Shown here piece by piece: positions 5,931 through 26,042 of a stretch of 36,033 nt of DNA (within the stretch, counting starts at the first letter, position 1; each line of letters starts with the position of its first letter). The stretch lies in contig JAURVQ010000096.1 of the NCBI GenBank assembly GCA_030655395.1, positions 1 through 36,033 on the forward strand, written 5' to 3'. The notes under the pieces were generated by a model that was given only the letters and a program-made list of their open reading frames with translations, made no database searches and had not been told where the DNA came from. Origin of the DNA: Gammaproteobacteria bacterium (GTDB taxonomy: Bacteria > Pseudomonadota > Gammaproteobacteria > SURF-13). The translations under genes were made by a program, and so were the position numbers.

Positions 5931-5971
5931 TGGAAATGCTCTGAAAGCTACAGGGCGCTATTGTACTGATT

Positions 5972-6129
5972 CAGTCAATAAATTAAGACCACACTTTCCG
6001 CTGCGTCCCCGCCCCCTGTTCAGGGGGCGGGACAGGGGGCGGGACAGGGGGCGGGGTAGATTAAACAGGGTTTTTACTCAGGAGTCACCTATTTAAAGTA
6101 ACGTGCTTTGCTTGATGACTCCTGAGTAA
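5972..6129. repeat. Composite intergenic repeat, copy 1
   Basis: This block closely matches 25899-26042. Shared parts in order are: a TAAGACCACACTT lead-in; a C-run/G-run hairpin (CCGCCCCCTG/CAGGGGGCGG); further G-runs; TTAAACAG or GTAAACAG; and a perfect inverted repeat TTACTCAGGAGTCA (6074-6087) with TGACTCCTGAGTAA (6116-6129) around a 28-nt loop. In this copy the 12-bp unit CAGGGGGCGGGA is repeated three times (6021-6056, last base variable), giving a strand with G-quadruplex potential. The right part overlaps the 3' end of the histidine kinase gene. No coding function of its own is seen. Confidence 0.85.
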
Positions 6130-7506
6130 TGGAAAACGCAGCGTCACCTTCAAGCCGGGATGGTGGTCGGATAATTCCAGCGCAGCGTGGTGCAAATTAG
6201 CCACCGCGCGCACCAGACTCAGGCCCAGCCCGCTGCCGGGCTGATGCCGGCTCGCATCCAGACGTACGAAGCGCTCCAGCACGCGCTCGCGCGCTGCGGC
6301 TGGAATGCCGGGGCCGTTGTCAGACACGCTGAGTTCGATGGCGCCGTCGGCACGCGTCGCGCCGAGTTCGATGCGGCTGCCGCGCGGCGTGTATTTGATC
6401 GCGTTGTCGAGCAGGTTGGCGAGGGCCTGCGCCACCAGTTCGCGGCTGCCGTGCAGCACAAGGCCTTCGCCAATGTGTGTCGTGAGCGTATCACCCTGTT
6501 CTTCGATGGCGGGCTGGTAAAGCTCCGCGACATCACGCGCGAGCTCGCCCAGATCGAGCGGCACCCAGTCGCTGCGGTGCGCGCCGGCCTCGGCCTGCGC
6601 GATGCGCAGCAACGCGTTGAAGGTGGCGAGCACGCCATCCACCTCACTCAGGGTTTGCTCCAGCGTGGCACGGTAGCGGGCGCCGTCGAACGTTTCGCGC
6701 AAACCGGATTCGAGACGGCTTTTGAGGCGCGTGAGCGGGCTGCGCAGGTCGTGCGCGATGTTGTCGGTGACTTCGCGCAGGCCGTTCATCAGGCGCTCAA
6801 TCTGATCCAGCATGAGATTGAGATTCTGCGCCAGTTGATCGAACTCGTCGCCGCTCCCGCTCAGCGGCATGCGCTGCTCGAGATGTCCGGCCATGATGGC
6901 GCGGCTGGTGTGATTGATGCGCTCGATGCGCCGCAGCACGCCGCGGCTCAATATCAACCCGCCCGCAAGCGCCAGCGCCAGAATGACACCCAGCGCCCAG
7001 AATAAAGTGGACAGGGTATGCTCGCGCAATTCTTCGCGCTCGCGCAGGTCGCGCCCGACCAGCAGGTGAGCGCCGCCGGGCAAGGTCACGCTCAGCGCGC
7101 GCGCCTCGCGCACGTCGTGCTCATCGCGCGCCTCCTTGTCGCGCTCCGTCAGGGTGAGCCGCGCCCAGCCTGCGCCGCGACGCAAGTCCTCCGGCCAGGC
7201 CGGAAGATTGCCCGCCAGCAGCGTGTAGCCGGGATTTGCGAGCAGGTAGATGTGGTCAGTGTCCTCACCGCCTGCGGCAGCGCGCTCAGCGACGGTGCGT
7301 TGCAGGCTGTTCAGGCCATGTATCTGGTAGGTTTCGCGCAACGCGTTCATCTCGGAGCGGATGACCGTATCGGTCTGCTCTTCCAGATAACTCGTTGTCG
7401 TCCAGTAAATAAAGCCAAGCGCAGCGAAACCGGAAAAGCCGAACAGACCCGCATACAGCAGTGCCACGCGGAATGCGGTGGTGCGAAAAAGATTAGGAAG
7501 GTGCAC
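6085..7506 (-). CDS. Two-component sensor histidine kinase
   Basis: Inner-membrane histidine kinase of 473 residues. Two transmembrane segments (about 12-34 and 167-187) flank a periplasmic loop of about 130 residues. A HAMP domain follows (188-240), then HisKA with phospho-acceptor H252 in DNIAHDLRSPLTR, and an HATPase domain with N-box LANLLDNAIKYTP (362-374), DNGPG (396-400) and GSGLGL (424-429). The start overlaps the end of the upstream response-regulator gene by 14 bp, so the two are one operon. The last 14 residues (from L460) are encoded by the composite repeat and do not look like a normal kinase C-terminus. The signal sensed is unknown; QseC/PmrB-like architecture is the nearest description. 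Confidence 0.93.
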   Translation of the reverse strand: MHLPNLFRTTAFRVALLYAGLFGFSGFAALGFIYWTTTSYLEEQTDTVIRSEMNALRETYQIHGLNSLQRTVAERAAAGGEDTDHIYLLANPGYTLLAGNLPAWPEDLRRGAGWARLTLTERDKEARDEHDVREARALSVTLPGGAHLLVGRDLREREELREHTLSTLFWALGVILALALAGGLILSRGVLRRIERINHTSRAIMAGHLEQRMPLSGSGDEFDQLAQNLNLMLDQIERLMNGLREVTDNIAHDLRSPLTRLKSRLESGLRETFDGARYRATLEQTLSEVDGVLATFNALLRIAQAEAGAHRSDWVPLDLGELARDVAELYQPAIEEQGDTLTTHIGEGLVLHGSRELVAQALANLLDNAIKYTPRGSRIELGATRADGAIELSVSDNGPGIPAAARERVLERFVRLDASRHQPGSGLGLSLVRAVANLHHAALELSDHHPGLKVTLRFPLLRSHQAKHVTLNR

Positions 7507-25885: not shown

Positions 25886-25898
25886 AATTCACCCGCTA

Positions 25899-26042
25899 AG
25901 TCAGTAAGTAAGACCACACTTCCCGCTACGTCCCCGCCCCCTATCAAGGGGGCGGGGCAGGGTGGGGGTAGAGTAAACAGTGTATTTACTCAGGAGTCAC
26001 ATTATTAACGTTGTAGCCCAAAACCTTGTGACTCCTGAGTAA
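25899..26042. repeat. Composite intergenic repeat, copy 2
   Basis: Matches copy 1 at 5972-6129: the TAAGACCACACTT lead-in, a CCGCCCCCT/AGGGGGCGG hairpin, further G-runs (25948-25968, including one GGGCAGGG, which matches the E. coli KOPS consensus), GTAAACAG, and the perfect inverted repeat TTACTCAGGAGTCAC (25986-26000) with GTGACTCCTGAGTAA (26028-26042) around a 27-nt loop. The loop sequence differs from copy 1. It lies between ftsK and ssb, both minus strand, in the same orientation relative to transcription as copy 1. It has one G-run block where copy 1 has three tandem units. Confidence 0.85.

Follow-up and report, generated by a model that had tools for sequence, protein, structure and literature searches.

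The window, the whole 36,033-nucleotide stretch that was analysed, holds two copies of a composite repeat. A histidine kinase gene (6085-7506, with the Pfam domains HATPase_c, HAMP and HisKA) overlaps the first copy, and the remaining neighbor genes of the two copies are ffh (SRP54), ftsK and ssb. The features are as follows.

5964-6129, plus strand: copy 1 of the element (166 bp), its G-run block enlarged, assigned by family match; its left end has diverged to TACTGATTCAGTCAATAAATTAAGACCACA
6007-6056, plus strand: C-run/G-run core of copy 1, its G-rich part expanded to GGGGGCGGGACAGGGGGCGGGACAGGGGGCGGGG, assigned from the sequence and from comparison of cores across copies
6074-6087, plus strand: internal arm of copy 1, which presents the terminal repeat a third time and pairs with the right end
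6116-6129, minus strand: right terminal inverted repeat of copy 1
6085-6129, minus strand: 3' tail that the element gives to the histidine kinase gene (6085-7506), whose product ends ...LRFPLLRSHQAKHVTLNR here and ...LRFPLSP in genome G002
25890-26042, plus strand: copy 2 of the element, with a decayed left outer end and its right TA at 26040-26041
25932-25968, plus strand: core of copy 2, CCCCGCCCCC-TATCAA-GGGGGCGGG-GCA-GGGTGGGGG
25986-26000, plus strand: internal arm of copy 2
26028-26042, minus strand: right terminal inverted repeat of copy 2

The sequence TTACTCAGGAGTCA occurs four times in the window, forming two inverted pairs (6074-6087 with 6116-6129 and 25986-25999 with 26029-26042), against a chance expectation of 0.02 when up to two mismatches are allowed; TAAGACCACACTT is found at 5984 and 25909. 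The shared, ordered parts that the initial annotation reported at these two sites, inverted repeats included, are therefore real and far beyond chance. Within the G-rich block of copy 1, repeats of GGGGGCGGGACA (6023-6056) account for the enlargement, and nearly all other copies differ from it in this respect. The histidine kinase gene takes its new C-terminal tail and its stop codon from copy 1.

We searched the window's own genome (G000; 1.72 Mb, 120 contigs, 97.9% complete) and found that what had been described as a two-copy repeat is present at many more sites. The 14-mer, with up to two mismatches, gave 125 matches across the whole genome compared with 3 for a reversed control, and a 161-bp copy gave about 40 composite matches. 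A 151-bp consensus unit built from the genome copies matched about 55 copies in the genome stretches around them, and a profile search returned 58 matches, for an overall estimate of 50 to 60 copies. The unit begins with a left terminal repeat, TTACTCATAAGTCAGTAAGTAAGACGACA, followed by a core made of CCCCGCCCCC, the loop TGTTTA, GGGGGCGGG, the loop ACA and GGGTGGGGG. On the 3' side of the core lie TAGGGTAAACAG, an internal arm TTACTCAGGAGTCAC that is a third copy of the terminal repeat, a 25-nt loop and the right end, GTGACTCCTGAGTAA, whose continuation within the loop is the reverse complement of AAGTAAGGCGACA. The terminal inverted repeats are imperfect and about 29 bp long (TTACTCAnnAGTCAnnAAGTAAGRCGACA, from the left end and the reverse complement of the right end). 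Outside TTA...TAA, conservation drops to background, giving sharp boundaries with unrelated flanks; the left ends of copies are often decayed.

This anatomy changes how the originally described parts are to be read. They lie within a longer unit (about 5964-6129 and 25890-26042), and their lead-in is the inner portion of the left terminal repeat. The perfect inverted repeat does exist: it is formed by the right end and the internal copy of the terminal repeat. The loops, which had been taken to be unrelated, contain the remainder of the right terminal repeat, blurred by divergence.

The unit, which is typically about 151 bp long and in its longest form 230 bp, contains no transposase gene and encodes no protein of its own. 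The longer form carries an insert of about 80 nt, rich in hairpins, in the core (TGAGGCCGTAAAGACGGCC...CTTTTGCGC...GCGCAAAAG); it is found at L040:3989-4221 (G000), at L093:1358-1587 (G002) and at several sites in G004 (e.g., G004:C2:1243-1470), and it seems itself to be mobile, since it is placed differently in different genomes. As the annotation had proposed, this is a dispersed element of the lineage, with many copies in the genus and family and hardly any in the rest of the class. Scans for the terminal-repeat pattern recovered copies of the element, a probable miniature inverted-repeat transposable element (MITE; see below), within the family, and a single full copy elsewhere in the class, in a different family (G027). 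Neither the window repeat nor the consensus was matched in phage and plasmid collections, and a search of the window against Rfam gave no match.

We then compared orthologous sites in two sister species of the same genus (G001 and G002) and in a further member of the family (G004). In 23 comparisons, 19 elements had an empty orthologous site in another genome. Most filled sites had the form N-TA-[element]-TA-N, the empty counterpart being N-TA-N, with TTAA as the commonest target, and 3 to 4 bases were kept at the empty site in 13 of the 23 comparisons, as N-TA-N predicts. Some empty cores deviate from NTAN (CTGA, TTGA and TGAG), which we read as later mutation; duplication of TA is the best fit, though not exact everywhere. 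Copy 1 is empty in G002 by visual inspection (CTATTG-TA-AAGGAAA, compared with filled CTATTG-TA[element]TA-ATGGAAA; CTATTGTAAAGGAAA), and we infer that its target duplication comprises 5964-5965 and 6127-6128. Copy 2, one of the 19 elements, is empty in both G001 (GAGTTAATCC, GACAAGAGTTAATCC) and G002 (GATCTAATCC, GACAAGATCTAATCC). Clear cases of empty sites include L044:9043 (G002, GCTTAATGG), L115:3165 (G000, TTTTAACATG) and window copy 2 (GTTAATCC), and at L078 the filled site reads ATA...TAA and the empty one ATAA.

Other element sites are common to G000 and G001 as older shared insertions which, together with the species-specific ones, indicate that movement spans a long time. The annotation had argued that the repeat was not a recent copy: the copies have indeed diverged, yet the many sites found empty in sister species show that the element has moved within the genus. 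One spacer carries copies in opposite orientations and of different subfamilies in two species (L060:5806-5956 in G000 and L115:1999-2148 in G001), i.e., independent insertions. At another orthologous pair (L082:1500-1650 in G001 and L032:3956-4109 in G000), flanks and stems agree and the hairpin loops largely differ, as if gene conversion from another copy had replaced the right half.

We conclude that the repeat is very probably (probability about 0.88) a family of MITEs moved in trans by a TA-duplicating, IS630/Tc1-mariner-like transposase. Such an enzyme would recognize the roughly 29-bp ends and move the element; we infer its type from the target duplication. It may by now be lost from these genomes, absent from fragmented assemblies or unrecognized. 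The IS630-type DDE domain PF13358 was not found in G000 to G003, whose assemblies are fragmented at repeats. G004 contains one IS630-like element (L146:900-2027) with 31-bp ends (CTAAACATGACGACATAAATAATGCCGCATA) and a transposase reading frame apparently split between two frames; we rejected it as the partner, as its ends (CTAAACATGACGACATAAATAATGCC) differ from those of the MITE. End-pattern scans of named genomes and of 369 genomes of the class gave, outside the family, isolated matches without a partner, and matches in Moorena, Roseivirga, Syntrophomonadaceae and Acidimicrobiales appear to be chance hits or other repeats. Three Nitrospira MAGs carry units of about 104 bp (L147:2683-2784, L158:4702-4804 and L162:177-278) that have the same ends, with TTACTCAnnAGTCAGnAAGTAAG at one end and its inverted partner about 100 bp away, but whose interiors are unrelated, leaving the full element unmatched. 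Judged by these shared ends, the transposase type may be common to different phyla.

Two other accounts of a short, palindromic, intergenic and dispersed element were weighed against the movement of a MITE in trans. A REP/BIME-like repeat spread by a Y1 (IS200-like) RAYT transposase would share those features, and the left end starts with TTAC, which is among the targets of some IS200/IS605 elements. This account is nonetheless highly improbable: both ends of the element carry long terminal inverted repeats, and the extra bases at filled sites fit a TA duplication, while IS200/IS605-type insertion is not known to duplicate its target. The regulatory or boundary role suggested by the annotation, as a dispersed regulatory RNA or a transcription boundary (terminator, attenuator or RNase III processing site) with conserved hairpins, could draw on the strength of the hairpins, with the whole consensus folding as RNA at about -69 kcal/mol on either strand, on the double changes in the right hairpin described below and on the location of copies mostly near gene ends and starts. 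Against it, neither window copy has terminator-like or promoter-like sites (0 intrinsic terminators, sought as a G+C-rich stem followed by a T-run, and no T-run), the window has no Rfam match, the orthologous spacer often lacks the element, and copies occur in convergent, divergent and both co-directional contexts. This role is without positive support and we consider it quite unlikely; a secondary effect on RNA, by analogy with Correia elements, is possible. Using a home-made gene caller on 155 copies across three genomes, we found none wholly inside a called gene (called genes make up about 88% of the G000 stretches examined). In co-directional spacers, 63 copies lay against transcription and 34 with it (two-sided binomial P value = 0.004, a somewhat optimistic value as copies shared by descent are not independent); divergent spacers held 22 copies and convergent ones 18. 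The common orientation relative to genes reported for the two window copies is thus a bias and not a uniform rule. In the favored orientation the G-rich strand is the transcription template and the mRNA bears the C-rich strand; selection would remove insertions that break genes or place G-runs in mRNA.

Within the MITE, two features called for explanations of their own, the first being the right hairpin, whose arms change together. In an alignment of 47 right hairpins, 96.9% of cells pair and double changes are found at 10 of the 15 pairs, a level reached by 0 of 500 shuffles; the signal was lost when the partner was slid. The left end does not track the right end, which makes this an effect of the hairpin and not of the terminal repeats. 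The stem also exceeded the loop in majority-base frequency (0.87 to 0.93 compared with 0.69), as the annotation had anticipated. Selection for structure, either a DNA hairpin for the transposase or an RNA, and not mutation bias, could have kept the arms complementary; the double changes favor it, and a need for paired ends is plausible given that the paired arms take in the element end. One orthologous pair, L067:7689 (G000) and L135:941 (G001), points elsewhere. In G001 the outer (right) arm carries an 8-nt deletion. The internal arm has four substitutions, each of which fits the new outer sequence, host bases beside an SRP RNA gene among them; although from a single pair, this suggests one template switch between the arms. 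(This copy is inserted immediately at the 3' terminus of the gene for the bacterial small SRP RNA, L135:841-1090 in G001, where the RNA gene was identified, and L067:7689-7836 in G000.) Template switching is known to homogenize arms and to mimic compensatory evolution (PMC8794818; PMC8604942). Switching during replication, with or without selection, would keep the arms complementary. The covariation behind the annotation's case for selection on structure thus holds, but selection is not its only explanation, because the stems are a terminal repeat and its internal copy, whose arms may be homogenized by templated change; we regard selection as the keeper of complementarity as a possibility somewhat short of even odds. 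The second feature is the core, which consists of a C-run, a G-run and a mirrored G-run, with T opposite the C interruption. Over 142 copies, conservation was 0.99 for the purine arm and mirrored third run and 0.92 for the C-run arm, compared with 0.82 to 0.87 for the terminal repeats (left, 0.82) and 0.69 for the hairpin loop. The one-strand layout of an intrastrand triplex (pyrimidine run, loop, purine run, loop, mirrored purine run) was present in 135 of the 142, with GGGGGCGGG-ACA-GGGTGGGGG exact in 100. By anatomy the core is a potential triplex, and a G-quadruplex would also fit, 82 of 88 copies having the canonical pattern of four G-runs. A quadruplex, however, needs neither the C-run arm, which is conserved, nor the mirroring of GGGGGCGGG and GGGTGGGGG about ACA, and that the core works as a quadruplex instead of a triplex is a tentative reading, about as probable as selection on the hairpin. 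The two folds are not mutually exclusive. The core may have been kept because it is useful to the element or because the source copies had it in common.

TA-targeting MITEs, Correia elements and RUP among them, show the filled/empty pattern described above (PMC2229807). Correia elements (NEMIS) of Neisseria are alike in size (about 107 to 155 bp), in having terminal inverted repeats of about 24 bp with TA at the termini, in their filled and empty sites and in size variants with an internal insert (PMC2229807). They differ in sequence and host, and the element described here adds an internal copy of the terminal repeat and the C/G-run core. RUP of Streptococcus pneumoniae is likewise a small intergenic MITE, with 108 copies and a TA-containing target (PMC2229807); in contrast to the present element, for which none was found, RUP has a proposed partner with similar ends, IS630-Spn1. 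The core resembles the potential intrastrand triplex (PIT) motifs of Escherichia coli (TM-ECO), which are intergenic, present in many copies and built of a C-run, a loop, a G-run, a 3-nt loop and a mirrored G-run, but CCCCGCCCCC...GGGGGCGGG...GGGTGGGGG does not follow the TM-ECO consensus, CCCTCNCCCN3-6GGGNGAGGGN3GGGNGAGGG (PMC4666352). Holder et al. reported that the E. coli-type motif folds as a triplex in vitro, that bacteria commonly contain potential triplex motifs and that the E. coli motifs are not associated with transposons (PMC4666352). At ten E. coli PIT sites that we checked, the conserved unit was only about 42 nt and lacked terminal repeats, and no ends similar to those of the MITE were present. 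The E. coli sites are thus analogous and not embedded in an element of the present kind, whereas the motif described here sits in a mobile element.

The new MITE family is ordinary in kind and unusual in its cargo and in the evolution of its hairpin. The latter calls for caution in covariation analysis, since compensatory changes in hairpins that occur as repeats do not necessarily imply a selected RNA structure. A more ambitious proposal, which we think unlikely, is that the element not only spreads but uses its triplex or quadruplex core, a replication stall there exposing the ends to the transposase and driving template switching, by which the end hairpin would mend itself even as the element diverged. 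If that were true, transposition would be a dispersal route for triplex motifs. In this element, whose movement the empty sites demonstrate, no part is better conserved than the triplex-like motif, and this makes testable both how such motifs spread and whether they are of benefit or cost to the carrier.
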